Positions 15,196 to 60,200 of a stretch of 64,000 nt of DNA are shown here, piece after piece. Within the stretch, counting starts at the first letter, position 1; each line of letters begins with the position of its first letter. The DNA is from Acidobacteriota bacterium (lineage in GTDB: Bacteria > Acidobacteriota > UBA6911): assembly GCA_016929335.1 (NCBI GenBank), contig JAFGIY010000130.1, forward strand, positions 1 to 64,000, given 5' to 3'. A program made the translations under genes and the position numbers. The notes under the pieces were generated by a model. The model was not told the origin of the DNA, ran no database searches, and was given only the letters and a program-made list of their open reading frames with translations.

Positions 15196-15492
15196 GGGGG
15201 AGGGGTAGAGGGAGGGGCAAAGGGGTAGAGGGAGGGGCAAAGGGGTAAAGGGGTTGAGGGGTTGAGGGGTTGAGGGGTTGAGGCGAATGAGAGGGTGAAG
15301 AAATGAGGGAATGAGAGAATGAGGGTAAGGAAGACAAGGGTGTAACAGAATATATAGGCAAACTACTTCTTCCATTATTCCTCCTACCCCTCTGCCCCTT
15401 TACCCCTTTGCCCCTCTGCCCCTTTGCCCCTTTGCCCCTCTGCCCCTTTGCCCCTTTGCCCCTCTGCCCCTCTACCCTTCTGCCCCTCTACC
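15196..15492. repeat. G-rich / C-rich tandem octamer arms (GGGGTTGA, GGGGCAAA words)
   Basis: Between tRNA-Ser and gltX. The left arm (15196-15293) is tandem G-rich words such as GGGGCAAA, GGGGTAGA and GGGGTTGA. The right arm (15382-15492) is tandem C-rich words TTTGCCCC and TCTGCCCC, broadly the reverse complement. Spacer about 90 bases. The same words recur after nikR (49057-49230). The pair could form a very large hairpin, and the G-rich runs could form G-quadruplexes. Confidence 0.85.
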
Positions 15493-15549
15493 GCTGCTTT
15501 TGCATTGACGAAAGGCGTGGTAAGCTTGCCATTTCCATGAGGTTGGCCG

Positions 15550-16998
15550 ATGTCCCCGAAAGAAAAAGTCCGCGTCCGCTTTGCTCCAAGCCCTACAGGG
15601 TATCTTCATGTGGGAGGAGCCCGTACTGCTTTGTTTAACTGGCTGTTCGCGCGCCATCATGGCGGCCAATTCATCCTGAGAATCGAGGACACCGATTTCG
15701 CCCGGTCGTCGGAAGAAATGGTGGAGGGCATTCTGAAGGGGATGCGCTGGCTGGGACTGAACTGGGACGACGGCCCGTTTTTCCAGTCCCGGAGGCTCGA
15801 TCGCTACAAGAAATTCGCCCTCAAGCTGATAGCGAGCGGCCACGCCTATCGATGCTTCTGCGGCACAGAAGAAGGCGTCGGCCGGAAGGGCTACGATGAA
15901 AACCAGTCCGCCGGGGAACATGCCTGTGCGAATCTTGCGCGGGAAAAATCCGAGGTGCGCGCCGAGGCCGGAGAGCCATTCGCCATCCGCTTCCGTGTCC
16001 CTCCGGGCAAAACGTCATTTGAGGACCAGGTCTTCGGCGCAATTGAGGTTGACAACGCGACCATTGAAGATTTCGTGCTTCTGAGATCCGACGGCATCCC
16101 GACCTATCATCTGGGAGTGGTTGTGGATGACCTCGACATGGACATCACCCACGTCGTTCGCGGTGCGGATCATATTTCAAATACTCCAAAACAGATCCTG
16201 CTGTATCGCGCCGCGGGAACTCCCATCCCGCAATTTGCACACCTTCCCCTTATCCTGGGCCCGGATAAACAGCGCCTATCCAAACGACATGGGGCAACAT
16301 CCGTGATGTCGTACGCGGAAATGGGATATCTGCCCGAAGCCTTCTTCAATTTCCTGGCGCTGCTCGGATGGTCCCCCGGCGATGATCGCGAAGTGCTTGC
16401 CCGGCAGGAATTGATCGATTTGTTTTCATTGAAGGGCGTAGGGAAAGCGAATGCCGTATTCGGGCTCGATAAGCTCGACTGGTTCAACAGCCAGTATATC
16501 CGCAATGCATCGAAGGAAAGCCTGCGCACGATGGTCAGGAACGAGCTGCAATCCAAACAGCTGTGGAGCAACGCCAATCCGGCTCTTTCGCCGGAAGCAC
16601 TCGACGCGGCTATCGAGCTGGTAAAGCCTCGTGCACGCAAGATCAGCGATTTCAGCAGCACCTTCAGTGCGTTCTTCTCCGATGACTTTGCCTATGACGA
16701 AGCTGCCGCAGAAAAATTCCTGAAAGATCCCAGGCTGGGAAGCCTTATTCGGGCGCTAATCGACCGATACAGCGCGGAGGACACCTTTACGCTGCAGTCC
16801 ACCGAAGAAACGCTGCGCCGTTTTGCCGAGAAAGAAGGCGTCAAAGCCGGCCTCCTCATCAATGCACTCCGCGTCGCCCTGACAGGACAGGGGGTTGCTC
16901 CCGGCTTGTTCGAAATCATGCAGGTTCTTGGACGCGAGCGGACGTTGCAGAGGATGCAGCGCCTGAACACATATTTACGATTGACGATTGACGATTGA
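15550..16998 (+). CDS. gltX: Glutamyl-tRNA synthetase
   Basis: Charges tRNA with glutamate (class I synthetase). The product of 482 residues has the HIGH-equivalent PSPTGYLHVGGA (His20) and the KMSKS-equivalent QRLSKR (241-246), plus FILRIEDTD and DITHVVRGADHISNTPKQ; the anticodon-binding helices follow. GAGG at 15539-15542 places the start. The last codons (LRLTIDD and TGA stop) lie inside the GATTGAC repeat, so the natural C-terminus has been replaced or extended by repeat sequence. With gatC and gatA in the same window, this enzyme may be non-discriminating and feed the Gln-tRNA amidotransferase route (inference). Confidence 0.95.
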   Translation: MSPKEKVRVRFAPSPTGYLHVGGARTALFNWLFARHHGGQFILRIEDTDFARSSEEMVEGILKGMRWLGLNWDDGPFFQSRRLDRYKKFALKLIASGHAYRCFCGTEEGVGRKGYDENQSAGEHACANLAREKSEVRAEAGEPFAIRFRVPPGKTSFEDQVFGAIEVDNATIEDFVLLRSDGIPTYHLGVVVDDLDMDITHVVRGADHISNTPKQILLYRAAGTPIPQFAHLPLILGPDKQRLSKRHGATSVMSYAEMGYLPEAFFNFLALLGWSPGDDREVLARQELIDLFSLKGVGKANAVFGLDKLDWFNSQYIRNASKESLRTMVRNELQSKQLWSNANPALSPEALDAAIELVKPRARKISDFSSTFSAFFSDDFAYDEAAAEKFLKDPRLGSLIRALIDRYSAEDTFTLQSTEETLRRFAEKEGVKAGLLINALRVALTGQGVAPGLFEIMQVLGRERTLQRMQRLNTYLRLTIDD

Positions 16999-17242
16999 CG
17001 ATTGACGATTTTAAACAGACGGGAGTACTGCTGGCTTTTTAAACGGACATTGCGTTAGATACAATATTTGAAAATAAATGCAGGATGAAGAACCATTGCG
17101 GTATATGTTTTCAATCGTCAATCATCCCATGGAGATATTCTATTCCGGCGCTGAAAGCTTTATTGACAAGGTTGCGCAAAGTACTATGAATGAGCCGTCA
17201 TTGCAGCGTATGGTTTCAATCGTCAATCGTAAATCGTCAATA
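16977..17242. repeat. GATTGAC word repeat, forward and reverse arms, gltX-pdxJ gap
   Basis: Tandem GATTGAC copies at 16977-17011 run forward from inside the end of gltX. Reverse-complement GTCAATC copies occur at 17111-17125 and 17216-17242, just before pdxJ. The stretch 17095-17242 is also a near copy of 18089-18242 in the next gap, alignable almost without gaps. Because the unit is 7 bases and contains TGA, three copies give a stop in every forward frame. Confidence 0.9.
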
Positions 17243-17255
17243 AGAAAGGGGGGGT

Positions 17256-17984
17256 ATGACCAAGTTGGGGGTGAATATCGATCATATTGCCACGATCCGG
17301 CAGGCACGCAGGGCGCTTGAGCCGGATCCGGTTGCCGCGGCGATTCTGGCTGAACTCGCCGGCGCTGACGGCATCACAGTCCACTTGCGCGGCGACCGGC
17401 GGCATATTCAGGACAGCGATGTACTCCGGTTGCGGGAAACGGTTACTACGCGGCTGAACCTTGAAATGGCTGCAACCGCCGAGATGGCCCGGATCGCATG
17501 TGAGCTGCGCCCCGACCAGGCCACTCTTGTGCCGGAAAATCCATCCGAGGTCAGCACGGAAGGAGGGCTGAATGTAGCCGGAGCTATGGAACCTATTTCT
17601 GCGGTAATCAAGGCGCTATCGGCTAAAGGCATTCAGGTGAGTCTCTTCATCGATCCGGATCCGCAACAGATAGACGCTTCAGCCGGACTGGGCGTTCCGA
17701 TGATTGAGCTTTGCACCAAGGCATTTTCCGAAGCATGCCCCAGGAGCCCGGATCTTGCCGGTCCCGCGCTTGAACGTGAACTGACAAAGGTTGTACAGGC
17801 TTCCGAACGAGGGAAAAAACTGGGCCTGAATATTCTGGCCGGCCATGGCTTGACTTACCGGAACGTTCGCCTCATTTCCAGCATTCCGGAAATCGAAGAA
17901 CTCAATATCGGCCACAACATCATCGCAAGAGCTTCACTGGTCGGCATGGAACGCGCTGTTCGTGAAATGCTGCAAGCGATGTGA
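17256..17984 (+). CDS. pdxJ: Pyridoxine 5'-phosphate synthase
   Basis: Last step of de novo (DXP-dependent) vitamin B6 synthesis: joins 3-amino-2-oxopropyl phosphate and deoxyxylulose 5-phosphate. The 242-residue product begins [19 protein letters not shown] and contains [21 protein letters not shown] and [11 protein letters not shown], which carry the active-site His, Glu and His. HLRGD replaces the commoner HLRED. It ends with the phosphate-binding [13 protein letters not shown] purine run AAGGGGGGG directly before the ATG is the ribosome binding site. It lies between repeat-bearing gaps and appears as part of a gltX-pdxJ-rsmI series. Confidence 0.95.
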
Positions 17985-17990
17985 TGGATT

Positions 17991-18242
17991 TACGATTGAC
18001 GATTTAAAACACACGGCAATTTTTGCGTCAGCTTCTTCATAGAAGGCTTATTGATGTGGTTGCGAAAAGAATAATGATGGGGCCATCATTGCGGGCTGTG
18101 TTTTCAATCGTCAATCATCCTATGGGATTATTTTGTTCCGGCGCTAAAAGGTTTATTAACAGGGTTGCGCAAAGCACTATGAATGAAGCGTCATTGCAGC
18201 GTGTGTTTTCAATCGTCAATCGTCAATCGTAAATCGTCAATC
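17991..18242. repeat. GATTGAC word repeat, pdxJ-rsmI gap, with duplicated spacer
   Basis: One forward GATTGAC arm (17991-18008) follows the pdxJ stop. Reverse GTCAATC words lie at 18105-18119 and 18211-18242, ending five bases before the rsmI start. The spacer 18089-18242 is a diverged duplicate of 17095-17242 (shared blocks TTCCGGCGCT, GGTTGCGCAAAG, ACTATGAATGA and CGTCATTGCAGCGT). Confidence 0.9.
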
Positions 18243-18247
18243 AACTT

Positions 18248-19078
18248 ATGGGTATACTTTATCTTGTTGCGACGCCGATCGGGAATCTTGAGGACATTTC
18301 TTTGCGCGCGCTGCGCATCTTGAAGGAAGCAGACCTCATCGCCTGTGAAGACACGCGACACACCGCCAAGCTTCTGACTCATTACGGTATAAGGACTCTA
18401 AGGGAGAGCTATCACCAGTTTAACGAGGCAAGCCGTGCGCCGCGGCTGCTTCAAATGCTGCGCGACGGCAAAAACATTGCCCTTGTCAGCGATTCGGGGA
18501 CGCCGCTGGTTTCCGATCCCGGATACGAGCTGGTTTCCCTGTGCCGGAGTCAAGGCATACAGGTAATTCCCATACCCGGGCCGTCAGCGGTTATCGCCGC
18601 ACTTACTGCCTCCGGACTTCCGGCCGAAAACTTTTTCTTTGCCGGTTTCCTTCCATCCCGCGCAACGCTTCGGAAGCGACGGATCGAGGAATTGAGGAGC
18701 ATACCCTCTACTCTGATCCTTTATGAAGCGCCCCACCGGCTTCTCCATTCACTGGAAGATATGACGGCAATATTGGGCGCAAGGCGAGCCACTCTCGCAC
18801 GGGAACTCACCAAGATCCACGAAGAACTGCTCCACGGCACCCTGCCGGAAATCCTGGATATCCTCCGAACACGCCCACGCATCCAGGGCGAGATAACGCT
18901 GGTAATCGAGCGCGGCGAATTCGCTCCTGCAGTTTCCTCCTATCCCGATTCGCTCAGGCAACATCTGGAAGAGGAAATGCAGAGAACAGGCCTCCCCCGA
19001 AATGAAGCGCTGAAGGCTGTCGCCAGACAGCGCGGACTGTCGCGAAAACAAGCCTATGAAAAGCTGATTGACGATTGA
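18248..19078 (+). CDS. rsmI: 16S rRNA (cytidine1402-2'-O)-methyltransferase
   Basis: Methylates C1402 of 16S rRNA in the ribosomal P site with S-adenosylmethionine. The 276-residue product shows the tetrapyrrole-methylase fold: MGILYLVATPIGNLEDISLR at the start, LIACEDTRHTAKLL, ALVSDSGTPLVSDPGYELV and PIPGPSAVIAALTASGLP, all diagnostic for RsmI. No Shine-Dalgarno is seen; the repeat ends just before the ATG. The last residues KLIDD and the TGA are supplied by the GATTGAC repeat. Confidence 0.93.
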   Translation: MGILYLVATPIGNLEDISLRALRILKEADLIACEDTRHTAKLLTHYGIRTLRESYHQFNEASRAPRLLQMLRDGKNIALVSDSGTPLVSDPGYELVSLCRSQGIQVIPIPGPSAVIAALTASGLPAENFFFAGFLPSRATLRKRRIEELRSIPSTLILYEAPHRLLHSLEDMTAILGARRATLARELTKIHEELLHGTLPEILDILRTRPRIQGEITLVIERGEFAPAVSSYPDSLRQHLEEEMQRTGLPRNEALKAVARQRGLSRKQAYEKLIDD

Positions 19079-19222
19079 CGATTTGCGATTGAAAACATAC
19101 TCCGCGATCAACCCTCATTCATCATTCATATTGCATTCTGCGTAATAAGGCTTGATATAAAGGAGCAGCCGCCAACACTTCCGTATGCTTCAAATCGTCA
19201 ATCGTAAATCGTCAATCGTCAA
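19068..19222. repeat. GATTGAC word repeat between rsmI and the coiled-coil gene
   Basis: The forward arm at 19068-19092 overlaps the rsmI end. The reverse arm at 19190-19222 overlaps the end of the convergent minus-strand gene, giving it its stop codon as well. Both converging genes thus stop inside the same repeat pair. Confidence 0.9.
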
Positions 19223-19761
19223 TGAAGGAATCTTCCTTCCAGTTCGCCCGGAAGGAAACCGGCTTTTTTCCCGGACTCCCAGACATCGTAGCGTTCGTCG
19301 CGCAGCTGTTTCAGCTTCAGCTGCAGTTCATCTATTTGACTCTGCAGTTGGCTCTGCGAATTCCCGGATTTGCCGCTGCCGGAGGAGCGCCCCAATTTTA
19401 CCGGAGCCCATTTCTCCTTCTGCAGACGGGCCCTTTTGGACGCCAGGCGGTCTTCGGTTTTCTGTATCTCACGATCCAGTTTCTTCAACGTGGCCTGATA
19501 CCGGCGAAGGGATGCCTGGTTTTTTGACGAATCCGATCGCGCCGAAGTTTTCTCCGGTTCATATGAGGGGCCGATGGAAGTGGTGATATTTCCGCTCGGC
19601 GCCGTGGAGGTTCCATTCCCTTCGATAACCCTGCCCTTAATTCCCTGCTGCTCCAGCAGTCTTCTCCTTTCCGCCTCTTCACGGGCGACATCAACAAGAG
19701 ACTGCATATCCAAAACCAAAAGAATGATCACGCAGAAAGACCTGAATTTTTGAATTCTCAT
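19219..19761 (-). CDS. Exported coiled-coil protein of unknown function
   Basis: I do not recognise a named family. From ATG 19761 the 180-residue product has a short hydrophobic leader (FRSFCVIILLVLDM), then SLVDVAREEAERRRLLEQQ, a motif common in small exported acidobacterial proteins. A low-complexity linker is followed by a long heptad-like helix (LRRYQATLKKLDREIQKTED, then SQIDELQLKLKQLRDERYDV), and the end is a short globular WESGKKAGFLPGELEG. The frame could begin earlier at 19827, but the leader fits 19761 better. The stop TGA comes from the GATTGAC repeat. Location: periplasm or envelope. Confidence 0.65.
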   Translation of the reverse strand: MRIQKFRSFCVIILLVLDMQSLVDVAREEAERRRLLEQQGIKGRVIEGNGTSTAPSGNITTSIGPSYEPEKTSARSDSSKNQASLRRYQATLKKLDREIQKTEDRLASKRARLQKEKWAPVKLGRSSGSGKSGNSQSQLQSQIDELQLKLKQLRDERYDVWESGKKAGFLPGELEGRFLH

Positions 19762-19941
19762 ACCAATCAAACAGCCGATCCGCTTTTTGAGCAAAAATTT
19801 TTCGGCCTGAATCGTCAACGAAGCCATTAGTGATATCCTGGACTATCTATCCGGAATCAGCATCAAAGGCTTTGAAGTTCGACAGGCTTTAGGCAAAGAT
19901 ATACAGGAATCCGTTTATCAATCTGGAGGAGGGTATTAAAA

Positions 19942-21672: not shown

Positions 21673-21766
21673 TCGGGTGCACTTAAGATCCGGACAAAAA
21701 ACATGCCACGGATTGCACGGATTGCAAAAATGTTAAATGGAAAAACTCATCCCGGATTGTCTGATT

Positions 21767-21789
21767 TTCGAATCTCGAATCTCGAATTC
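21767..21789. repeat. GAATCTC word repeat (single arm) upstream of type B gene
   Basis: TTCGAATCTCGAATCTCGAA and a few more bases, ending just before the AAGGAG ribosome binding site (21791-21796) of the next gene. No forward partner arm is seen in this gap. Confidence 0.75.
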
Positions 21790-21800
21790 TAAGGAGAATC

Positions 21801-23768: not shown

Positions 23769-23778
23769 GTGCCTTTCA

Positions 23779-23817
23779 GCCACGAATTACACGAATTTAA
23801 TTCGCGTAATTCGTGGC
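23779..23817. repeat. CACGAATT word palindrome
   Basis: GCCACGAATTACACGAATT followed after a short centre by TTCGCGTAATTCGTGGC, a near-perfect hairpin between the two VWA modules. It ends five bases before the ribosome binding site of the next gene. Confidence 0.9.
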
Positions 23818-23834
23818 ACTCAGAGGAGTGCGGT

Positions 23835-25535: not shown

Positions 25536-25585
25536 CCCGGGAGCGTCGGCGCTCCCGGCAATTGGTGGACAGCGTTGGGAGGAGC

Positions 25586-27532: not shown

Positions 27533-27542
27533 CCTGCTCAAA

Positions 27543-32866: not shown

Positions 32867-32917
32867 CGCCACGAATTCCACGAATTATGGGCAATTTTAT
32901 TCGTGGAATTCGTGGCG
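32867..32917. repeat. CACGAATT word palindrome
   Basis: CGCCACGAATTCCACGAATT and its reverse complement AATTCGTGGAATTCGTGGCG around a short centre, between the divergent lipoprotein and VWA genes. Confidence 0.9.
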
Positions 32918-32981: not shown

Positions 32982-33989
32982 ATGAGCTTTAAGTCACTGA
33001 TCTTTTTTGCTGCCATGATTCCGCTTCTCTTTTCCGCATTCGCCTCAGGGCAGAAGCAGAAAGATGATCAGGTCATCCGGGTAGCCGTCGATATGATTTC
33101 GCTGCCTGTGGTGGTGACCACAAAAGACGGCAGAAGAGTTACAGACTTAAAAAAGGAGGATTTCCAGATATTCGAAAATGGTGCAAAACAGGAAATCGCA
33201 GGATTTGCTGCCACCGATGAGCCCATCTGCGTAGCACTGGCTTTGGACACCAGCGGCAGCACCGAACTGAAACTTGCCAGGATTCAGAACGCCGCAATCA
33301 AGTTTGTCCATCAGCTTCACCCGGATGACGAAGTTGCTGTGATGTCGTTTGCGGATGACGTCCGGCTGCAGGAAGATTTCACCATAGATCGCGACAAAAA
33401 CGAGTACGGCATCAAGAAGACCAGGACGGGCGGATGGACGGTTCTATACGAAGCCGTTTGGCTTGCCCTGGAAGATGTTCTTAAACCGATTCGAGAGCGC
33501 AAAGCGCTTGTGCTCTTCAGGGATGGAGTCGACACCCACAGTGGGAGAGCGACCATGAACGAAACGCTTGACCTGGCAAGAGAATCCCCGGCTACAATTT
33601 ATTGCATCTATTTCGATACCGAGCGCGATCAATATGAAATCAACCGCAGGAGTTCGGGACGAACGCTGCCGCCGGTAATCTGGAATCCATTGCCCCCTGT
33701 GACAGGGGGAAGCTCAGGTCCCAGTCCCGAGGAATACCAGAGAGGGAAAGCATATTTGAACGGTCTGGCGGAATACAGCGGAGGTATAGTCCTTGACGGT
33801 ACGAACGATCTCGATGAAGCCTTCGCACAGATTGCGAAGGAGCTCGCCAGCCAGTACAGCATCGGCTACTATTCTTCCGATCCCCGGCACGACGGCAAGT
33901 TTCGCAAGGTCCAGGTAAAGCTGAACAAGGAGGGCCTTGTTGCCAGAACCAAAAAGGGGTACTACACGAAAAAGGATAAAAAGAAGTAG
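32982..33989 (+). CDS. Exported VWFA-related protein with intact MIDAS
   Basis: ATG 32982 is chosen from GGGAGG at 32971-32976. The 335-residue product has a signal peptide (SLIFFAAMIPLLFSAFASGQ), the leader domain VAVDMISLPVVVTTKDGRRV with FQIFENGAKQEIAGF, and a complete VWA domain. VALALDTSGSTELK gives the metal-binding DxSxS exactly, unlike the duplicated type A and B proteins. The domain ends in QYSIGYYSSDPRHDGKFRKV and KKGYYTKK. It is the shortest of the six and close to the core of the family. The stop codon touches a CACGAATT palindrome. Confidence 0.85.
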   Translation: MSFKSLIFFAAMIPLLFSAFASGQKQKDDQVIRVAVDMISLPVVVTTKDGRRVTDLKKEDFQIFENGAKQEIAGFAATDEPICVALALDTSGSTELKLARIQNAAIKFVHQLHPDDEVAVMSFADDVRLQEDFTIDRDKNEYGIKKTRTGGWTVLYEAVWLALEDVLKPIRERKALVLFRDGVDTHSGRATMNETLDLARESPATIYCIYFDTERDQYEINRRSSGRTLPPVIWNPLPPVTGGSSGPSPEEYQRGKAYLNGLAEYSGGIVLDGTNDLDEAFAQIAKELASQYSIGYYSSDPRHDGKFRKVQVKLNKEGLVARTKKGYYTKKDKKK

Positions 33990-34034
33990 CCACGAATTTC
34001 GCGAACTGCGAATCAATTTCGCGAAATTCGTGGC
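33989..34034. repeat. CACGAATT word palindrome at the VWA stop codon
   Basis: GCCACGAATTTCGCGAA and TTTCGCGAAATTCGTGGC around an 11-base centre. The first G is the last base of the TAG stop of the VWA gene. It lies between convergent genes and may act as a terminator. Confidence 0.9.
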
Positions 34035-36678: not shown

Positions 36679-37143
36679 ATTCGAGATTCGAGATTCGAGA
36701 TTATTTTCTGTGAGGTAGCTTTTTAAGATAATTCATGAAACCGGTTATTTGGCGACTGATGGATTCAGCCTGAGCTGCAATTCTCGCAAAATCGGAACTG
36801 GATAAGTAGCCAAGATCCAAAGCCAAATAAAGCTGCGCTCTCACCTCAGCAGCAGATCCTCGGGCTGAGGAAAGAAACCGGCAAAAGATTGGATTGCTCT
36901 GGCTTTCAAAACCTTCCGCGATGTTGCTGGCTATGCTAATCGATGCTCGGCGGATCTGATCCCGCAACCCATAATCCCTATAAAATGAAGGATTTCTGGA
37001 AACCACATAAATGTTCTGAACAAGCTCTCTCGCCGATATCCACATTCCCATTTCTTCAAATCGCCTAAGTTTTGCCATGTATATCTAACGGAGATTTGGC
37101 AGAAGGAGCTAAAACTTAATCTCGAATTTCGAATCTCGAATTG
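36679..37143. repeat. GAGATTC word arms enclosing a four-helix-bundle gene
   Basis: Left arm 36679-36703: tandem ATTCGAG. Right arm 37119-37143: the reverse complement, TCTCGAATTTCGAATCTCGA. Between them lies exactly one gene, whose stop codon TAA overlaps the left arm. This is the only place where the two arms enclose a coding gene rather than a spacer. Confidence 0.85.
36701..37078 (-). CDS. Four-helix-bundle protein (23S rRNA intervening-sequence protein family)
   Basis: The 125-residue product has the family pattern: ARELVQNIYVVSRNPSFYRD, YGLRDQIRRASISIASNIAE, GFESQSNPIFCRFLSSARGS, then AEVRAQLYLALDLGYLSSSD. Members form a small pentameric helical bundle and are found inside rRNA intervening sequences or scattered in genomes; function unknown. 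It is boxed in by inverted GAGATTC repeats, which suggests a cassette. Confidence 0.88.
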   Translation of the reverse strand: MAKLRRFEEMGMWISARELVQNIYVVSRNPSFYRDYGLRDQIRRASISIASNIAEGFESQSNPIFCRFLSSARGSAAEVRAQLYLALDLGYLSSSDFARIAAQAESISRQITGFMNYLKKLPHRK

Positions 37144-37683: not shown

Positions 37684-37731
37684 ATTCGAGATTCGAAATT
37701 AATTCCGAATTTCGAATCTCGAATTCCGAAT
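37684..37731. repeat. GAGATTC word palindrome at the end of the membrane-TPR gene
   Basis: ATTCGAGATTCGAAATT followed by AATTTCGAATCTCGAATT. The last eight codons and the stop of the adjacent minus-strand gene (NSRFEIRN) are read from it. Confidence 0.88.
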
Positions 37732-38916
37732 CATGTTTCTGGCCCGATATATCCATTCACGATTTTCTTTCCGGAAGAATCTCGGATGCGAGCGGGCTTG
37801 CTCTATTATCCTGTTCAGTTGCACCCGCATCTGTTCGATATCGCCGCGCTTTTGAAGGGCAACCGCGAGCCAGTATCTCCCTTCCGGGTCCGAACCGCGC
37901 TTGTTCAGGAAAAATTCCAGAAATTCGATTGCTTTGTTTTCATTTCCCGTATGCAGATAGGCTTTACCGACCTCGCGGAAGATATCTCCCAGTCCGTACT
38001 CCGGATCGAGCCGGTACGTTTCCTCGTATTGCTCCAACGCCCGGGCCCAATCACCTTTGAGCTCATAAACGCGCCCGAGAGAATAGGAATAGTCCGGAAT
38101 CTTAGGATCGATTTTAATCGCGCTCTCGAAGTACCTGCGGGCAGCATCCAGACTTCTGCGTTCAAGGTGTATGAGTCCAAGCTGATATGGAGCATCCGCG
38201 TCCTGAGGATTGGCGGTCAGGGTGTGAAGATGCTGTTGATAGGCACGTCCGCTCGAATGCGCCGTCTGATAGCCGCGAATCCACTGATACCCCAGATAAA
38301 TCAGAGGGATCATGATAAAAAACGGCAGGGCAAAGAAAAAGGATGTCAGGATGTAATAGATTGGAAGCGTAAAACAGGATAGCGCGAAAACTCCCAGGGC
38401 CTGGACGGGCGCCAGATAATTGAGCATCTTGATGGCCCAAAAAGTGTAGATAAGAATCAGTATCGAGCGCACAAGCATTCCGATAGAGATTTCGAAAAGC
38501 CCGACGATCAGAAAATGAGGGATCAGCCATTGCAGCGGTGCGCAAATGAAAAACAGCAGACCCCATAAAGGCATAAGCGCGGAGACGTGAGTCTGATATT
38601 CCTGTCTGGACACGGAAAAGCCGAGTCCGTCACCTGAGATGGCGTTGCTCATCACGATTACGGCAGGAATATAAATCAGCAGAAGGAACAGAAGGATATG
38701 AAGCAGCTGCAAATCGAAAACAGCCCCCATCAACCCGGTCTGCTGCAACCGGACTTCCGGCAGAATCGCATAGACTGAATTCCGTACCAGAGCATAGGCG
38801 ATATATCCCGCGCAAAAGAAGACAACACCGGCAATCGGAGCACGCCGTTCGGCCTGCGCCCGGAAAGCATCCGTTCGAAATGCGAGCATACCCAGGAGGT
38901 TTCCAATGAATGTCAT
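37699..38916 (-). CDS. Yip1-like membrane protein with C-terminal TPR repeats
   Basis: The 405-residue product has about five hydrophobic spans between residues 25 and 215 (Yip1-like: PIAGVVFFCAGYIAYALV, LLHILLFLLLIYIPAVIV, FLIVGLFEISIGMLV). Three to four TPR units follow (PQDADAPYQLGLIHLERRSL, IPDYSYSLGRVYELKGDWAR, GKAYLHTGNENKAIEFLEFF). The last residues NSRFEIRN come from the GAGATTC repeat. Its start overlaps the response-regulator stop (ATGA at 38913-38916), so the histidine kinase-regulator-TPR genes form an operon and this protein is a likely output or partner of the two-component system. Confidence 0.75.
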   Translation of the reverse strand: MTFIGNLLGMLAFRTDAFRAQAERRAPIAGVVFFCAGYIAYALVRNSVYAILPEVRLQQTGLMGAVFDLQLLHILLFLLLIYIPAVIVMSNAISGDGLGFSVSRQEYQTHVSALMPLWGLLFFICAPLQWLIPHFLIVGLFEISIGMLVRSILILIYTFWAIKMLNYLAPVQALGVFALSCFTLPIYYILTSFFFALPFFIMIPLIYLGYQWIRGYQTAHSSGRAYQQHLHTLTANPQDADAPYQLGLIHLERRSLDAARRYFESAIKIDPKIPDYSYSLGRVYELKGDWARALEQYEETYRLDPEYGLGDIFREVGKAYLHTGNENKAIEFLEFFLNKRGSDPEGRYWLAVALQKRGDIEQMRVQLNRIIEQARSHPRFFRKENREWIYRARNMIRNSRFEIRN

Positions 38917-39599: not shown

Positions 39600-39692
39600 A
39601 ATTCGAGATTCGACATTCGAGATTCGAGATTAAAGATTTGAGATTCGAGATGTGAGATTATGGCTTCGAATCTCGAATTTCGAATCTCGAAT
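39600..39692. repeat. GAGATTC word repeat between histidine kinase and regulator genes
   Basis: Forward words at 39600-39660 (ATTCGAGATTCGACATTCGA and further) and reverse words at 39665-39692 (TTCGAATCTCGAATTTCGAA and further). The 3' end of the kinase gene lies inside it. Confidence 0.88.
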
Positions 39693-41238
39693 CATCTTCC
39701 GATTCTCGGATCGGGATTTTTAAGGTAAAGGTGCTTCCTTTTCCGGCTTCGCTCTTTACCAATATCTCTCCCCCGTGCATTTCGGCAACATGCTTGGTAA
39801 TGGCAAGACCGATCCCGCTTCCTCTTATTCTCCGGACTGAAGGATCGCTGCCGCGGTAAAATTTGTCAAATATCTTCTGTTGCTCGGATTCCGGGATGCC
39901 GACGCCCTTATCTGCAACGGACAGGTCCACGAAGCCATTACTGCATGCCACTTTGATATCGATGCATTTCCGGTCTCCCGAATATTTTACGGAATTATCC
40001 AGAAGATTCAAAAACGCCATGGCAATTGAATTGGGATCCACATATGAATCGGGAATACCCGGATCCACATCCAGGTTCAACTGAAATCCGTCTTTCTGAA
40101 TCTCGGCGCCATAGGCTTCCAGGACTTCGACAACCAGTTGCGCAATATTGATTTTTTCAAAATGCCTGTATTCGACTCCGCGCCCCAGATTGGCGAAATC
40201 AAGCAGGTTGGCGATAAGGCGCGTCATCCGGTCGCTTTCGCTATGAATGATCCGATAGTACTCAAGCCTTTTATTCTCTTCTTTTGCTCTGCCCATAAGC
40301 AGCATTTCACTGAACATGCGTATCAGGGACAGCGGAGTCTTGAGCGCATGGCTGACGTTGCTGATAAAATCTTCCTTCAGTTTTCTAAGCTGGCGGTCGC
40401 GCCGCCAGGCAACAAATATGATCGCAACGCTGATGAATGTAAGCGACATGCTCGTGATGACGAAAAAAAGGTTCCTGAGCCGCTGGTTCCGGACTCCCTG
40501 TTCGAGTTCCGTGTAGTTGCGGGGCAATATCTGCAGGAGCCATTTGTACAGCGTATTCGGGAATCTGGTTTCGAAACGATATTTGGAAGGAGAGATCGGC
40601 TGGCCGTAAACGCCGTTGCCTTCGAAATCCACAACACTTACATAAAACCGGTCCTGAAGCTCGCGCAGCCGGCTGTCTACCAAAGCCATGATCTTGTCGA
40701 AGCTCATCTGGTAGCAGACCAGTATGCGCGTCCCGTCTCCAGCCTCCTTCAGAGCATAGGTGGCGAAGAAGTAATTTTTGGGCCGTTCCATGTGCAGGTG
40801 ATGCGGCTGATCCAGCGCTATGCGATCGAGATCGAGTTCCTTCACTTTGAAGCTGGCGCGGAATGCTCCCCACTGATTTCTTATCTCATGAGAATACAAG
40901 GGGTACAAAGGCCAGTCGCTGTCCGGCTTGAGAAAATAGACCTGGTCCACGTTTAGGTCGGCTTTCCTGATGGCATCCACCATCTCAGGCCAGCGAGAGG
41001 GGTCATTGACATCAACCATATCCAGCAGGATTCGATCGTTTTCCTCTATCTTCTTTTCAATGCGATTCACGGTCTGGGATGCAAGCTTGTTGTTGCTCTG
41101 AATCAGGGATGTCTCGACCAGGTTTTCACGGCCAACCGTGTAGTAGTAGCTGAAATAGCTTAGCGCAGCGGTCGAGATGACGATCAAACCGATGCCGATC
41201 AAAATCAGAGGCGCCTTTTGCACAAACGGTATCTTCAT
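39658..41238 (-). CDS. Membrane sensor histidine kinase
   Basis: The 526-residue product has a first membrane span at about 10-32, a periplasmic sensor region of about 220 residues, a second span at about 256-278, a HisKA domain with phosphoacceptor His297 (EDFISNVSHALKTPLSLI), and a HATPase domain (FLNLLDNSVKYSG, DKGVGIPESEQQKIFDKFY, RIRGSGIGLAI). No HAMP domain is obvious. The C-terminal tail SRFEIRDSKP is encoded by the GAGATTC repeat. It forms an operon with the response regulator and the Yip1-TPR protein. Signal unknown. Confidence 0.92.
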   Translation of the reverse strand: MKIPFVQKAPLILIGIGLIVISTAALSYFSYYYTVGRENLVETSLIQSNNKLASQTVNRIEKKIEENDRILLDMVDVNDPSRWPEMVDAIRKADLNVDQVYFLKPDSDWPLYPLYSHEIRNQWGAFRASFKVKELDLDRIALDQPHHLHMERPKNYFFATYALKEAGDGTRILVCYQMSFDKIMALVDSRLRELQDRFYVSVVDFEGNGVYGQPISPSKYRFETRFPNTLYKWLLQILPRNYTELEQGVRNQRLRNLFFVITSMSLTFISVAIIFVAWRRDRQLRKLKEDFISNVSHALKTPLSLIRMFSEMLLMGRAKEENKRLEYYRIIHSESDRMTRLIANLLDFANLGRGVEYRHFEKINIAQLVVEVLEAYGAEIQKDGFQLNLDVDPGIPDSYVDPNSIAMAFLNLLDNSVKYSGDRKCIDIKVACSNGFVDLSVADKGVGIPESEQQKIFDKFYRGSDPSVRRIRGSGIGLAITKHVAEMHGGEILVKSEAGKGSTFTLKIPIRESEDDSRFEIRDSKP

Positions 41239-41303: not shown

Positions 41304-41361
41304 GCCACGAATGAACACGAATTCCGACGAATGGATGCATTCATTCGTGTTCATTCGTGGC
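41304..41361. repeat. CACGAATT/ATTCGTG word palindrome
   Basis: GCCACGAATGAACACGAATT and the mirror ATTCATTCGTGTTCATTCGTGGC around a short centre, between the kinase gene start and the exbD stop. It may act as a terminator of the tonB-exbD transcript. Confidence 0.88.
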
Positions 41362-45863: not shown

Positions 45864-45873
45864 GAAATGCGGG

Positions 45874-48643: not shown

Positions 48644-49057
48644 ATGACATCGCTAATACGGACAGGCATTTCTCTTGAGCGGGATCTTCTGGAACGGTTT
48701 GATCGGATGATCGAACAAAAAGGCTACGGCAGCCGATCCGAGGCAATACGGGATCTTGTGCGTGATCACTTTGTAGAAGAGGACGTCATATCCAACAAAG
48801 TGGTCGTAGCGACCCTCACGTTGGTTTATGACCATCATCAACCGAAGCTTTCGGAACAGCTTATTGAAGCGCAGCATGATTACAAAGGACAGGTTCTGGC
48901 GACTACACATGTGCACCTGGATCATCATACCTGCCTCGAAGTCATCATTCTCAAAGGGCGCGGAACGGAAGCCAAGGTCTTTGCCGATCACCTCCTATGC
49001 CTCAAGGGCGTAAAGCATGGGAAACTGGTTCTAACCAACGCCGGCGCAGAGGAATAA
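48644..49057 (+). CDS. nikR: Nickel-responsive regulator NikR
   Basis: Ribbon-helix-helix repressor controlled by Ni2+. The 137-residue product has an N-terminal RHH domain (LIRTGISLERDLLERFDRMI, GYGSRSEAIRDLVRDHF) and a C-terminal ACT-like metal domain. The four Ni ligands are present: His78, His89, His91 and Cys97 (QHDYKG, TTHVHLDHHTCLEVI). The stop touches a GGGGCAAA repeat. It is divergent from the Gate-permease operon, which it probably controls along with itself (inference). Confidence 0.93.
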   Translation: MTSLIRTGISLERDLLERFDRMIEQKGYGSRSEAIRDLVRDHFVEEDVISNKVVVATLTLVYDHHQPKLSEQLIEAQHDYKGQVLATTHVHLDHHTCLEVIILKGRGTEAKVFADHLLCLKGVKHGKLVLTNAGAEE

Positions 49058-49230
49058 GGGGCAAAGGGGTAGAGGAATAGAGGAGAAAAGAGGGAAACCT
49101 GTAAACATAAGGCTTATGGATTGCAGGATGGAGTAATGGATTTTCATCCATCCCCCTCTACCCCTTCCTCTGCCCCTTTGCCCCTTTACCCCTCTACCCC
49201 TTCCTCTGCCTCTTCCCTCTGCCCCTCTAT
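49057..49230. repeat. G-rich / C-rich tandem octamer arms after nikR
   Basis: Left arm 49057-49096 starts at the nikR stop (GGGGCAAAGGGGTAGAGG). Right arm 49150-49230 has CCCCTTCC, TCTGCCCC and TTTGCCCC words. Same words and layout as 15196-15492. Confidence 0.85.
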
Positions 49231-49297
49231 TGGATAAACTGACAATGTATCCCATTTGGATCGACTTTTTGCCGGGCTTTGATGTCCAATCAAAGTG

Positions 49298-49915: not shown

Positions 49916-49935
49916 TTTTTATGGAGGGGATTAAC

Positions 49936-50664: not shown

Positions 50665-50678
50665 ACTGGAGGATCATC

Positions 50679-51548: not shown

Positions 51549-51550
51549 AC

Positions 51551-51610
51551 GATTTGAGATTGCAGATTCGAGATTCGAGATTTTTATTTCGAATCTCGAA
51601 TCTCGAATTC
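51551..51610. repeat. GAGATTC word palindrome between convergent genes
   Basis: Forward words at 51551-51580 (GATTTGAGATTGCAGATTCG and further), a short T-rich centre, then reverse words TTCGAATCTCGAATCTCGAA to 51610. It separates the exported-protein gene from hppA and ends four bases before the hppA stop. Confidence 0.9.
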
Positions 51611-51613
51611 GCT

Positions 51614-54094: not shown

Positions 54095-54176
54095 TGTGGA
54101 TTCTCCTGAGTGGGTGAAAAAGGGGCGCGCGTATCTACTCCAAATATTGCTTAACATCGTACTGAATGAAGGCGGC

Positions 54177-54182
54177 ATTATA
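54177..54182 (-). promoter_or_regulatory. Possible -10 element for hppA
   Basis: TATAAT on the minus strand, 83 bases before the hppA ATG. The -35 region 17 bases further is poor (TCGCGG), so the promoter is only tentative. Confidence 0.3.
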
Positions 54183-54262
54183 CTCTGTACCGAGGGAATC
54201 CGCGATGAAATATTTAACGCTCCCCAAAATTCTTGCAGGCTAAAGGTTTTTTAACCTTGAAG

Positions 54263-55410: not shown

Positions 55411-55479
55411 ATTATGATCTCCACGGGTCTATGGTCTCCATAACTCCTGGATTCTTGGGATCGTATCTTATCACCGGAT

Positions 55480-56418: not shown

Positions 56419-56665
56419 ATCTCCTGTAACCCGTGATTCGTATTTGTTTGAAAGCAAGATTGTTACAGATAACAACCCGCCGATGTTCCTCAAGTTATGC
56501 GTCCCCGATCCGGCACTCCCGGCCCCGAGCTAAACAGTCAAAAATAAAATGAACAAGATGCTTTACAGCAGCTAAGGGAGTCTGATACATTTCGTCCTTG
56601 GGCGCCTCCCCTAAACAAATATCAGAGTCGTTGGTCCTCTAATTGGCGACAAGCGAGAGCGGCGT

Positions 56666-57361
56666 ATGAACCTAAATGGTTCCATCAAAGATCTACAAAA
56701 CACAATAGTTCAGCTATATCTCAATCTAGAACAGCGATTTAGCGAGAACCATCTCATTCGCGAACTATGGGGCGCAATGGCTCACGACGTATCTCAGCAG
56801 ATACTCAGCCTAAATGCTCTGCCACAGTCCTTCTGGAATCAGCTCAAGAAAGAGAAAAATGGACTGTTAATCGAAACGGCCCAAAGCATAAGACGCCAAA
56901 TGATTGATATTAAAGAGGATCAGCCTTTGGTGAGTTGCTTCGAGCATGCGCTTCGCCTTGAGGAGCCGACTATCCTGAAGGTATATGCCCCCCTAATCCG
57001 CAGACTTCGGGAAAACCTGACGGCGCCGGCTCTGGATTTCTACATAGTCGTCAAAGCGCATCTCGCCCGGATATCGAGGGAAACAAAAGCTTTTTCAGGC
57101 GATCCCGTGCTTATAGAGCGATCCGATTCGCTGCTTCAAGCATTTGAAAAGGAAGTTCAGGAACCTCACATTGAAGTGCAGATACATGCCGGGAAGAAGC
57201 CACAGGTTCGCCATATGGGCCCGGGCAAAGTAACTGTGAAGAAGGTCCAAAAAGCCGTGCCAAAAGCACGCCCTCTTGCTAAACGCGCAAAAATCCTCCA
57301 TAGCAGGACTAAACCTCTGGTTAAAAAAGTCAGCATCCAGCGCCGCCGCGCACGCCGATAA
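56666..57361 (+). CDS. Helical protein with a strongly basic C-terminal tail
   Basis: I do not recognise the family. Residues 1-180 are predicted helical, with a ferritin-like flavour (LIRELWGAMAHDVSQQILSL ... VVKAHLARISRETKAFSG), but the metal ligands of ferritins are not complete. The last ~50 residues are Lys/Arg/Pro/Ala-rich (KKVQKAVPKARPLAKRAKIL to SIQRRRARR), like histone H1-type bacterial DNA- or RNA-binding tails. The ribosome binding site is weak (GCGAGAG). The next gene is the ClpX-like ATPase, 170 bases away; a link is possible but unproven. 56419-56665 upstream shows nothing recognisable. Confidence 0.55.
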   Translation: MNLNGSIKDLQNTIVQLYLNLEQRFSENHLIRELWGAMAHDVSQQILSLNALPQSFWNQLKKEKNGLLIETAQSIRRQMIDIKEDQPLVSCFEHALRLEEPTILKVYAPLIRRLRENLTAPALDFYIVVKAHLARISRETKAFSGDPVLIERSDSLLQAFEKEVQEPHIEVQIHAGKKPQVRHMGPGKVTVKKVQKAVPKARPLAKRAKILHSRTKPLVKKVSIQRRRARR

Positions 57362-57533
57362 GATAAATCAGCCATAAATTGTGCTGACAATTTGCCCGCA
57401 TATTCGTTCGGGCATTCGCGTGATTCCTGGCCTGCTTTTTGTGCCCGCGGTTGATTTTTCGGGTTTCCGAACCCATACTCTATTTTAGATCGAAAAGCGA
57501 CTTCAAAAATGCTGCGATCCGAGGAGGTTGGTT

Positions 57534-59099
57534 TTGCCGATAAATTCTGGTACCAAATGGCCTAATCCCGACGAGTTGCGCAAGGATATGGAAGAGTTCT
57601 TTTCAAAAAAGTACGGAGACAAGGTCAAACTTGGCGTTTTAGGAGCCGAGCCGGACCAGGCGCTTACAGCCGACGAAGGCACTGAGACGAAGAACGCTCC
57701 TCTGGACCTGCAATTTGATTACCTTCCCCGGGATATAAAAAAATATCTGGATCGCTTCGTTGTAAAACAGGATGCCGCCAAGAAGGTTTTGGCTACCACA
57801 ATCTGCGACCATTACAATCACATCAAACGCTGCTCCGTGAAAGGTCCCTGCAAAGAGTATTCCAAGCAGAACATAATCATGCTCGGGCCGACCGGAGTGG
57901 GAAAAACTTACCTGGTCCGAACAATCGCGGATCTGATTGGAGTTCCTTTCGTCAAAGCGGACGCTACCAAGTTTTCAGAAACCGGGTACGTCGGCGGAGA
58001 TGTGGAAGACCTGGTGCGGGAGCTTGTTCATAAGGCGGACGGGAATATCCAGTTGGCGGAATACGGCATTATCTATCTCGATGAGATCGACAAGATCGCC
58101 ACGCCAACAAATATACTGGGTCGCGATGTAAGCGGCGGCGGCGTTCAACGCGGTCTGCTTAAGCTGATGGAAGAAACGGAAGTAAGCCTTCGTACGCCGT
58201 TCGACTTGACCTCACAGCTGCAGGCGGCAATGGAATTCCAGTCCAAAGGCAAGGTTGCCCGCTCGGTGATTAATACGCGCCATATATTGTTTATTGTCAG
58301 CGGCGCGTTCAACGGTCTCGCCGATATCATTCGCCGCCGTCTCGGCGCAAAAACCATCGGTTTCAGTTCCACCGGCAGATCGGCGCCTCGAGATGAAGAT
58401 TACTTCCAGTATGCGAAAAGCAACGACTTCATTGAATACGGATTCGAATCGGAATTCGTGGGCCGGTTGCCTGTTGTTGTCAGCTGTCATGAACTGGGCG
58501 TCGACGATCTCTTCCAGATTCTAAAAAATTCAGAGGGATCCATTATCCGTCAGTATGTCAACGCCTTTGAAGCCTATGGCATAGACTTGGCTCTAACGGA
58601 CGCAGGGCTCTACCGCATTGCACAAAAGGCCTATGAAGATCACACCGGCGCGCGAAGCCTTGTCGGTGTCTGCGAGCGCACATTTCGCGAGTATAAGTAC
58701 AGCCTGCCCCACTCTCCCGTCAAATGCCTGGAACTGACCGAAAGACTTGTGAATCAACCGGATGAAGTGCTCGAAGAAATCTTGCGGGACGCAAAAGCCG
58801 CTCGGCTGGAGGAAATGACCCTCGAATTCCATTCAATAGCCGAAGAATGGTCGAAGAAGAACGGCATTCAGATTCATCTTCGGCCGGAAGCCGCTCGCAT
58901 GTTGAGCCGGAAAGCCCTTGAAAGAGGAGACAAACTCGAAGACATATTTTCCGAGATTTTTAAAGATTACGAACACGGCTTGAACTTGATCCGCAGAATG
59001 GGAAGCGCTCAACAATTCGAAATAACCGAGGATGTGGTCCGCGATCCCCGGGCAGCCCTGGATCAGTGGATTCGTTCCTATTATGTTAGTCGGCAGTGA
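57534..59099 (+). CDS. ClpX-like AAA+ unfoldase without zinc-binding domain
   Basis: TTG 57534 lies six bases after GAGGAGG (57521-57527), which decides this start over TTG 57528. The 521-residue product has a novel ~85-residue N-terminus in place of the ClpX C4 zinc domain. The AAA+ core has Walker A LGPTGVGKT, pore loop GYVG in ETGYVGGDVEDLVRELV, Walker B IIYLDEIDKI and sensor SGAFNGLADIIRRR. The ClpP-docking IGF tripeptide is kept (AKTIGFSST). The stretch where ClpX has its RKH substrate loop is different (DLTSQLQAAMEFQSKGKVAR). A C-terminal helical extension (LEFHSIAEEWSKKNGI and on) goes beyond ClpX length. The last residues VSRQ come from the CGGCAGT repeat. Confidence 0.85.
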   Translation: MPINSGTKWPNPDELRKDMEEFFSKKYGDKVKLGVLGAEPDQALTADEGTETKNAPLDLQFDYLPRDIKKYLDRFVVKQDAAKKVLATTICDHYNHIKRCSVKGPCKEYSKQNIIMLGPTGVGKTYLVRTIADLIGVPFVKADATKFSETGYVGGDVEDLVRELVHKADGNIQLAEYGIIYLDEIDKIATPTNILGRDVSGGGVQRGLLKLMEETEVSLRTPFDLTSQLQAAMEFQSKGKVARSVINTRHILFIVSGAFNGLADIIRRRLGAKTIGFSSTGRSAPRDEDYFQYAKSNDFIEYGFESEFVGRLPVVVSCHELGVDDLFQILKNSEGSIIRQYVNAFEAYGIDLALTDAGLYRIAQKAYEDHTGARSLVGVCERTFREYKYSLPHSPVKCLELTERLVNQPDEVLEEILRDAKAARLEEMTLEFHSIAEEWSKKNGIQIHLRPEAARMLSRKALERGDKLEDIFSEIFKDYEHGLNLIRRMGSAQQFEITEDVVRDPRAALDQWIRSYYVSRQ

Positions 59100-59272
59100 G
59101 CAGTGGGCAGTCGGCAGTCAGCGGTCGGCAGTCAGCGGTCGGCAGTGGATAGCTAAAATGGGAGAAATGAGGCTGCGTCTAAGCTTGTTTCCCTGCCGAC
59201 TGCCGACCAACCGCTGATCACTGCCGACTGCCGACTACTCACTGCCCACTGCCGACTGCCGACTGCCGACTG
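59089..59272. repeat. CGGCAGT heptamer arms between convergent genes
   Basis: Left arm 59089-59148: GTCGGCAGT, GTCAGCGGT and related words. Right arm 59192-59272: tandem CCGACTG, the reverse complement. Spacer about 45 bases. The ClpX-like gene ends in the left arm and the radical SAM gene ends in the right arm, so both C-termini are repeat-coded. Confidence 0.92.
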
Positions 59273-60171
59273 CTTTTTCTCCCCTGATAGGTGTCCCGCT
59301 CCTCAAACCTCCGCTCAATGCAGGCACGGATCTCCGCTTTGCTCTTTCCCCATATGGGCTCGATCAATTGCTCCCTCGGCGCAGTCCCAAACAGCCGCTC
59401 TATATAAATGGCCGGATCCAGCCGCTCGAGAAAATCCACAACAAGCTCCGCGTATTCCTGCAATCCCGGCAGCGGGAATGGATTTGAGAGATACTCACGT
59501 TCCATTGCCGTGTTTCGCACTATATGAAGATGGTGCAGCTTTAAGACATTTAATCCCTGGCCCGACAGGACATCCGCACTACGGAGCATTTCTTCGCGAG
59601 TTTCCCAGGGAAATCCCAGAATCAGATGCGTGCATAGCCATATTCCCCGGTCGCGCGTGCGCCGCATCGCATCAAGCCAGCATTTGAAATCGTGACCGCG
59701 ATTGATTCGTGAAAGGGTGGAGTCGTATATGGACTGAAGTCCATACTCCAGTGTCACGAAATGTGTCCGGGCGAGTTTTTCGAGCCATGCAATCTTCTCT
59801 TCATCAACACAGTCGGGCCGGGTTCCCAGGGAAATGCCAACCACATCCGGGTGGCCAACGGCTGCTTCATACATTGGTATCAACTTATCCAGAGGAGCAT
59901 GTGTATTTGTAAACGGCTGAAAATAAACGATAAATTTGTCGGCTCTACTGTGCTTTCGCAGAAACTCGATCCCCGTACTAACTTGCTCCGAAACCGGTTT
60001 CAACCGGTTGGCGCTTCTGGCACGGAATGAGTCATTATTGCAGTAGGTGCACCCTCCCACGCCGACCGTTCCGTCCCGATTGGGGCAGCTGAATCCCGCA
60101 TCCACGCTGACCTTGTAAACTCTGCAGCCGAACTTTTCCTTCAGGAATCGGCTATAGGGATTGTAGCGCAT
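59239..60171 (-). CDS. Radical SAM protein, TIGR01212/YhcC family
   Basis: ATG 60171 (MRYNPYSRFLKEKFGCRVYK) fits the family start; longer starts at 60213 or 60252 would translate a GAGATTC repeat. The 310-residue product has the radical SAM cluster motif CPNRDGTVGVGGCTYC, then YFQPFTNTHAPLDKL, VGISLGTRPDCV, LEYGLQSIYDSTLSRINRGH, and GLNVLKLHHLHIVRNT, all typical of YhcC-like enzymes. The substrate is not known. The C-terminal SSRQSAVGSGQ is encoded by the CGGCAGT repeat, so both ends of the gene border repeats. No clear ribosome binding site. Confidence 0.88.
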   Translation of the reverse strand: MRYNPYSRFLKEKFGCRVYKVSVDAGFSCPNRDGTVGVGGCTYCNNDSFRARSANRLKPVSEQVSTGIEFLRKHSRADKFIVYFQPFTNTHAPLDKLIPMYEAAVGHPDVVGISLGTRPDCVDEEKIAWLEKLARTHFVTLEYGLQSIYDSTLSRINRGHDFKCWLDAMRRTRDRGIWLCTHLILGFPWETREEMLRSADVLSGQGLNVLKLHHLHIVRNTAMEREYLSNPFPLPGLQEYAELVVDFLERLDPAIYIERLFGTAPREQLIEPIWGKSKAEIRACIERRFEERDTYQGRKSSRQSAVGSGQ

Positions 60172-60200
60172 TCGAGATTCGAGATTCGGGATTCGGGATT
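60170..60200. repeat. GAGATTC word repeat, single arm
   Basis: ATTCGAGATTCGAGATTCGG and further, overlapping the ATG of the radical SAM gene. A lone AATCGAGATTCGG lies at 60303-60315. Confidence 0.75.

Follow-up and report, generated by a model that had tools for sequence, protein, structure and literature searches.

Paired tandem-word repeats in an Acidobacteriota genome as probable gene-free copies, for the most part, of tiny mobile units built around one small gene

The intervening sequence (IVS) of the Coxiella 23S rRNA is 428 nt long, ends in a 28-bp terminal stem, carries tandem GACAGAT words beside its open reading frame (ORF) and has been called selfish (passages of PMC4990558). In Xanthomonas, the heptamer GGGAATC forms 70 (Xcc) and 75 (Xac) convergent pairs, mostly of four units; positions 1–4 and 6 are conserved and the pairs lie closer to the 5' neighboring ORF (passages of PMC4692102). 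The present report concerns a stretch of 64,000 nucleotides from an Acidobacteriota bacterium (GenBank assembly GCA_016929335.1, contig JAFGIY010000130.1, positions 1 to 64,000), hereafter the window. At 14 sites in the window, tandem arrays of a short word X are followed by arrays of its reverse complement. Most of these paired repeats seem to be copies, without the gene, of very small mobile units built around a single small gene. The arrays would be the ends of small mobile elements, a master with its satellites, which are addressed by the protein of the master; the probability of this reading is estimated at roughly 0.64.

The genome of the window (G000) is assembled to 6.5 Mb in 258 contigs and the window is part of contig C188. 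An initial annotation had described at least five unrelated tandem words, each occurring as a forward block followed by a reverse-complement block. Reading of the sequence bears this out for five words at all 14 sites, 11 of which also have a row in the Tandem Repeats Finder (TRF) output. The polarity is constant, as the X arm precedes its complement in every two-arm site read and in all five word families. A sample of 282,720 bases of G000 (the window and at most 20 kb from each of 20 contigs, with every 13th contig number chosen) contains 11 inverted pairs and no direct pair. The 11 pairs count as 10 distinct ones, since those at 15241 and 15255 are one site, and 7 of the 10 fall in the window. 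The shuffling control proposed in the initial annotation agrees with this result: each of five dinucleotide shuffles of the sample is free of inverted pairs. The pair count is a lower bound because two-copy CACGAATT hairpins are below the TRF threshold. In the whole of G000, CCACGAATTNCACGAA occurs 151 times and GATTGACGATTGACGATT 30 times, and the respective controls (reversed in the case of CCACGAATTNCACGAA) do not occur. Finished plasmids show the identical architecture, thus the two-arm layout is not an assembly artefact, which had been named as a possible refutation.

The inner sequence next to the arms, about GATTGAAAACATA, is common to several GATTGAC copies as judged by eye. Accordingly, the GATTGAC elements look like copies and not like independent expansions. 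Microsatellites and palindromes that arose independently by slippage would agree with the very variable arm lengths in a minority of loci. We give this explanation next to no credence and have rejected it, as inverted pairs are missing from the shuffles and from all 63 control windows of a second locus set (see below), the polarity is fixed, inner ends are shared and the word is identical with that of a master gene. For the pairs, the private words and empty sites described below speak against slippage as well.

One of the 14 pairs is a complete master element (36679-37143, minus strand). Inverted ATTCGAG arms at 36679-36702 and 37118-37141 enclose an interior of 415 bases, which is a gene of family PF05635 (23S rRNA-intervening sequence protein, IVP) between queF and another protein gene. 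The four-helix bundle protein encoded at 36701-37078 (minus strand, 125 aa, P0001) matches PF05635 with an E value of 1.4e-32 and TIGR02436 with an E value of 2.1e-32. Its closest relative in the PDB is 2gsc (E 4.9e-20), XCC0516 of Xanthomonas campestris. There are four strong PF05635 genes in G000 (L009–L012), all of them between inverted tandem arms and all with different words: CGGCAGT for L009, an 8-mer of the AGAGGGGT type for L010, ATTCGAG for L011 (the copy in the window) and GATTTAC/GATTGAC for L012. GxxExxY genes (PF13366), which we took to occur beside such repeats, were tried as masters for this reason, and a search then bore it out. The only PF13366 gene found in G000 (L054) is flanked by CACGAATT with about two units per arm. 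The five words are therefore those of five small genes in the same genome, four of PF05635 and one of PF13366. The notion of several unrelated words with one architecture, which form one system, is thus right; what the initial annotation had missed is the PF05635 gene inside one of the pairs and the assignment of every word to a single small gene in its own genome.

Two further PF05635 matches on contigs C242 and C128 (L013 and L014, 34.8 and 24.5 bits) were left out of the masters owing to the weak match and longer frames. They are adjoined by arrays of 9-10-base words of GTCCGTG and GTGGAC type and perhaps represent a further PF05635 sub-type. The only Rfam match in the window is a tRNA, and there are none around 11 other IVP loci; a location in rRNA was thus rejected for the copies tested. 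The hexamer TCGGGG forms two inverted pairs on another contig (L172, 8151-8265 and 14760-14868) without a master in G000, and similar hexamers flank the IVP genes L154 in G026 and L148 in the congener G001. The master of these pairs may be lost or missed, or L172 may be a stray contig (contamination is given as 6.3%).

Inverted arms are a general feature of the surroundings of PF05635 genes. G000 and its relatives (60 genomes) hold 147 PF05635 places, of which 96 from 36 genomes were examined; the other 51 are mostly weak, partial or at contig ends, with a few stronger ones among them. At least 200 bp were required on both flanks, whereby 10 of the 96 loci were dropped. The remaining 86 loci have an array on the left in 79, on the right in 73 and on both sides in 70 cases. 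Partner arms are inverted in 64 of the 86 loci compared to 23 of 830 pairs from mismatched loci. The period is 7 in 101 of 132 arms, 8 in 25, 6 in four and 9 in two, and the upstream arm is purine-rich in 47 of 63 cases. A second set was drawn from named genomes and consists of the best 80 of at least 540 confirmed places related to one IVP query. Both flanks are available for 70 of these loci (10 dropped), 56 have both arrays and 53 are inverted, whereas control windows 600 bases further out yield no inverted pair (0/63). The inverted loci belong to Planctomycetota, Acidobacteriota, Chloroflexi, several proteobacterial groups, Verrucomicrobia, Lentisphaerae, Cyanobacteria, Omnitrophota, Hydrogenedentota, Chlorobiota, Synergistaceae and one member of the Clostridiaceae.

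For GxxExxY, 49 of 66 places were examined; four were dropped for want of a tblastn hit and three for too little flank. Flanks are inverted in 28 of the 42 remaining loci as compared to 18 of 206 mixed pairs, and the words include CACAGAGA, CGCAGAGA and CACGAATT. Plasmid-borne GxxExxY was found in four records only. In the one record read, from Treponema (L369), the gene is flanked by a short inverted pair, ACACGGATTCG, in which tandem repetition is not evident by eye. Searches of viral contigs with an IVP query gave 21 pattern matches and no relative, and another IVP query had no match in phages. PF05635 or PF13366 genes with word arms look like an element class common in bacteria. As a side observation, the IVP gene is located between cas6 and cas4 (CRISPR) on Anabaena sp. 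90 pANA02 (L350) and on Pseudanabaena galeata pPg_01 (L364), with different words.

The word and the protein are inherited together. Protein and word similarity are correlated among the relatives (Mantel r 0.29, 0/2000 permutations) and more closely over 126 loci (r 0.55, 0/1000 permutations). Of the protein pairs among the 126 loci, those with the highest similarity share a word in 82% and those with the lowest in 3%, and for 68 of the 126 loci the closest protein carries a matching word (18.1 expected). Masters within one genome have words that do not match in 95 of 104 pairs. In the named set, most words vary a single core, AGT[GAT]Gnn, across phyla; in 43 of 60 loci the upstream arm contains this core two or more times. 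Other words of this set are near variants (AGGGGAG, AGTTCTC) or distinct (TCGTTGG). The earlier view that the layout rather than the sequence is kept is hence only half right: the layout is common to all loci, but the word core is largely kept within a protein clade.

These data bear on a different explanation, according to which the arms are structural hairpins recognized by their shape, a generic enzyme of the host or acting in trans moves the units, the word is neutral and the gene is a passenger. The layout is indeed common to two unrelated protein families, the unit lacks a transposase and the folds of the 14 elements in the window are stable (z -3.1 to -9.8). Co-inheritance of word and protein is not expected in this case, nor that masters of one genome rarely share a word and satellites match one master. 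Furthermore, unit positions 6 and 7 are nearly free. The agreement of variable positions between the arms is 0.70 in the outer register (p 0.006), 0.67 in the inner register and 0.67 across registers, a comparison in which the core positions are partly fixed by the search pattern and only positions 6 and 7 are exempt. Since these positions are nearly free and the agreement between the arms is weak, a perfect stem is not what is kept; strict hairpin pairing as the conserved property was rejected. Recognition by shape thus retains an outside chance. The data suggest recognition of the individual unit as a site.

The gene-less pairs largely share the word of a master in their own genome. With a match defined as a score of at least 14, 25 of 32 gene-less pairs in the sampled stretches match an own-genome master in the same polarity. 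The fractions are 13 of 16 in G042, five of six in G045 and seven of nine rows in G000, where one site is counted twice. The value for G042 is biased because the stretches of this genome were selected at positions where its word was known to occur; those of G045 and G000 were chosen independently of the word. The word of one G042 IVP, AGTTCAAAGTTCAAAGT, occurs 156 times in G042 (reversed control: four) and not at all in the other 59 genomes. Similarly, CCACGAATTNCACGAA is counted 391 times in G011, 106 times in G031 and 79 times in G014 besides the 151 copies in G000, and at most once in each other genome.

In three genomes, 42 gene-less elements were related to their neighboring genes. Distances of at most 10 nt or overlaps were observed for 32 of 47 gene 3' ends and 14 of 29 gene 5' ends (overlaps of up to 324 nt, from simple ORF calls). 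The statement that the arrays sit only at gene ends or starts therefore nearly holds; it fails for a single arm at 60170-60200, which is inside a predicted ORF.

Insertion is directly visible from related genomes in which the same junction is empty. The gene order gltX-pdxJ-rsmI is kept in congeners. The pdxJ-rsmI gap, which is 263 bp with the element in the window, is 1-53 bp in G004, G005, G008 and G009, and G001 has a shorter GATTGAC hairpin there. The queF junction spans 633 bp with the IVP element in the window, about 51 bp in G003, 85 bp in G001, 405 bp in G008 and 286 bp in G009; the IVP element is absent from this junction in G003 and G001. Arrays of other words were seen at the queF junction, namely GAAGCCG, GGAATCG and AACGTTC in G008 (L306) and ACGCAAAG-like words in G001 (L309). 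This junction is possibly an insertion hot spot.

The clearest case is found on Trichormus variabilis plasmid C, with an IVP element in an apparent conjugation operon, two genes away from a TrbI/VirB10 gene. Plasmids of Microchaete, Tolypothrix and Nostoc linckia are about 98% identical around this site and lack the element; the empty junctions were read for Microchaete and N. linckia. The insert comprises 423 bp and the sequence GTAAT, which contains a stop codon, is duplicated at both sides. The Scytonema copy (409 bp) has the same GTAAT duplication. Duplications of 5 bp mark staggered cuts. What is left at the same site in Nostoc C052 pC052_E is a single arm together with a piece of the IVP N-terminus (AKTFQYLIVWQKAHQF), so that a full element has decayed here. 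The second site carries the element in Nostoc ATCC 53789 pNsp_a and in pC052_D of C052, and it is unoccupied in three others, pNsp_b, pNsp_c and C057; by eye, TTCTA is present on both sides at a stop codon, with one base differing beyond TTCTA. A different IVP with a different word is located one gene beyond this site in pNsp_c. At a third junction (Calothrix compared to Tolypothrix and N. carneum) the gene and arms are present or absent without a clear duplication. The same holds for a fourth junction at a TraM-like gene, which is filled in C052_D and N. edaphicum and without the element in C057. At the fourth junction, no IVP is annotated in pNsp_c of ATCC 53789, but the left boundary agrees and arms resembling GGGAAC can be made out by eye, the right arm alone passing TRF; this is perhaps a gene-less counterpart.

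An RNA route would account for some of these observations. The unit would enter transcripts at or next to stop codons and be reverse transcribed by an external enzyme, with IVP acting like Avd. The junctions at stop codons fit such a route, as does the homology of Avd (4DWL), a protein of diversity-generating retroelements, with PF05635 and 2GSC (passages of PMC10053308). The IVP gene is in sense direction in 58 of 71 cases with co-directional neighbors (24/27 and 34/44); selection for expression would give the same bias, and no control gene set was scored. A 5-bp target duplication is what a staggered cut in DNA typically leaves, and the unit has no reverse transcriptase. None is annotated beside the IVP genes at the plasmid loci read, where no systematic search was made. 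Furthermore, the IVP gene of Nostoc edaphicum (L351, 1831-6318) is antisense between the ribonucleotide reductase genes nrdB and nrdA. On balance, the chance of an RNA route is slim.

The other 13 sites of the window are gene-less and no strand is assigned to them. Three elements carry the GATTGAC word of L012. The first (16973-17242) contains the gltX stop codon in its left arm, the second (17987-18243) occupies the pdxJ-rsmI junction and the third (19066-19223) contains the rsmI stop codon in its left arm. The GGGG-type 8-mer of L010 is found between a tRNA gene and gltX (15196-15492) and at 49054-49230. The GAGATTC word of L011 forms a short hairpin at 37684-37731, which overlaps the end of ORF 37699-38916, and hairpins at 39600-39692, with an arm that holds the last codons and stop of ORF 39658-41238, and at 51551-51610, flanked by two convergent stop codons. 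Accordingly, gltX, rsmI and ORF 39658-41238 end within an arm that provides their last codons and stop. Short hairpins of the CACGAATT word of L054 are present at 23779-23817, at 32867-32917, immediately 3' of a stop codon at 33989-34034 and, as CACGAATT/CACGAATG, at 41304-41361. The CGGCAGT word of L009 is used at 59088-59273, flanked by convergent ORFs. In addition, there are unpaired single arms at 21707-21787 and 60170-60200 (CACGGATTG twice; TCGAATC; ATTCGAG), which are probably decayed elements.

Transcription stop had been suggested as a role for these sites. The stable folds agree with it, but a run of at least five T follows the arm at only two of 28 ends, and the terminator as the main role was rejected. 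More broadly, the arms could be regulatory RNA sites (terminators, stabilizers or translation control) with the protein as their regulator, spread by ordinary duplication and selection. Stable folding, the position at gene ends and the purine-rich upstream arm would suit such sites, and TAACTGA heptamers have been proposed to be regulatory (passages of PMC4679880). Besides the rarity of T-runs, the junctions are empty in close relatives and the master was inserted as a unit, which makes a purely regulatory origin very improbable.

The arms themselves have a preferred length. Among 184 period-7 arms shorter than 60 nt, the modal length is 31 nt (29 arms) and 71 arms measure 30-33 nt. Lengths of 7n+3 to 7n+5 account for 113 of the 184 arms (p 1e-5), which is the expectation if an arm starts and ends with the core. 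Many 31-nt arms read as four full units and a final AGT, i.e. five cores. Five chains are present in each of the PDB relatives 2gsc (XCC0516) and 2rld, and five four-helix bundles are mentioned in the title of the paper on XCC0516, as given in a reference list. The match of five cores with five chains is suggestive and not proof. Gene-less arms are more spread in length.

In the favored model of protein-addressed mobile elements, a master of about 0.4-0.5 kb consists of one small gene, for IVP or for GxxExxY as a second family, with a tandem X arm upstream and its reverse complement downstream. Most likely, the protein recognizes its own word. Insertion takes place at gene junctions, often at a stop codon and before the next gene, with a 5-bp target duplication in one clean case; it would proceed by a staggered cut, and the enzyme would be supplied by the host or another element. 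The GxxExxY protein may itself cut, as its family is placed in the PD-(D/E)XK nuclease superfamily according to the Pfam name. Gene-less pairs would be derived from such units by loss of the gene, with the arms retained, and would have spread in trans as satellites of the resident master.

Several observations weigh against this model. The single ORF between the arms is PF05635 or PF13366 instead of the transposase that the full-length form of a classical MITE or insertion sequence encodes, and the IVP element contains no catalytic domain. IVP domains are near-neutral, with a median net charge of just +1, which gives the binding claim no help. For seven of the 32 gene-less pairs, no master in the same genome reaches the threshold. 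In G014 and G031, CACGAATT pairs are numerous and a PF13366 match was not obtained, which points to masters that are lost or unassembled or argues against a strict rule. GATTGAC arrays are numerous in G001, yet two IVP genes read there have hexamer-like words. At the threshold, inverted partners are missing from 22 of 86 loci of G000 and its relatives and from 17 of 70 loci of the named set; the GxxExxY locus of G000 itself scores 16 with a threshold of 17, and the arms beside the Pseudanabaena gene L364 are direct. Mixed partners match in 191 of 548 pairs of the named set because words are shared there. The satellite distances to 3' and 5' ends differ weakly (p 0.055). A clean target duplication (GTAAT) is known from one site, in two filled plasmids, and an automatic search detected none at the four other junctions. 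The five cores are partly a matter of reading: a strict in-phase count peaks at four (chains of at least three) and gives no more than 0-2 cores for 34 of the 75 upstream arms and likewise for 34 of the 75 downstream ones.

A wider interpretation is held tentatively, and we would sooner expect it to fail than to hold throughout. It proposes a widespread, transposase-free class whose small protein, a pentamer, recognizes a 7-nt word of its own and directs copying. Each arm would have about five units (five specified bases, two free), anything between inverted arms would be copied, the targets would be stop-codon junctions and each protein clade would own its word. Many orphan heptamers of bacteria (GGGAATC, TAACTGA, AGTGGnn) would be satellites, and the IVS of 23S rRNA would be one member of the class that has landed. 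The design would have arisen on two occasions, once around a four-helix bundle and once around a PD-(D/E)XK protein.

Heptamer repeats that were previously reported piecemeal and without a cause are hereby provided with a gene, an architecture and a record of mobility, and two common, poorly understood families (IVP/four-helix bundle and GxxExxY) with a role. The model predicts a protein-to-word recognition code that is testable on natural diversity, and 126 protein-word pairs have already been compared. Moreover, the origin and movement of the 23S rRNA IVS become testable outside rRNA.

The layout had been regarded as not described as one system. Convergent heptamer pairs were published for one word, GGGAATC in Xanthomonas, and tandem heptamers for the Coxiella IVS; among open-licence PMC papers, none was found that joins the gene family and the arms. 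In passages of PMC10053308, PMC8700078, PMC5524665 and PMC11637426, the IVP family is nowhere tied to heptamer arms. The GGGAATC repeats are predicted to be linked to XCC0516; the searched text of PMC4692102 contained no mention of XCC0516, a four-helix bundle or an intervening-sequence protein. TAACTGA and other heptamers of Beggiatoaceae, Cyanobacteria and Bacteroidetes likewise form intergenic sets suspected of horizontal spread; they differ in being mostly single-arm direct sets, with one inverted, and no master gene is named (passages of PMC4679880).

With REPIN/RAYT the present elements share extragenic inverted doublets, gene-less satellites, a single-copy master and co-evolution of repeat and protein (passages of PMC3116915); inverted doublets with gene-less copies in extragenic space were found here as well. 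The master is IVP or GxxExxY instead of a Y1 (HuH) transposase, the arms are tandem words, mostly 7-mers, and the master is itself found as an insertion. By analogy, the elements would work like REPIN/RAYT without a transposase. With the 23S rRNA IVS of Coxiella and Leptospira, which contain an S23p/IVP ORF, they have in common the protein family (PF05635/S23p), the size, inverted-repeat ends and heptamers. The IVS is located in helix 45 of the 23S rRNA and is excised by RNase III (passages of PMC4990558), whereas the present elements are found at protein-gene junctions and have two tandem-word arms, many words and many gene-less copies. Thus, the elements described here are kin of the selfish 23S rRNA IVS.

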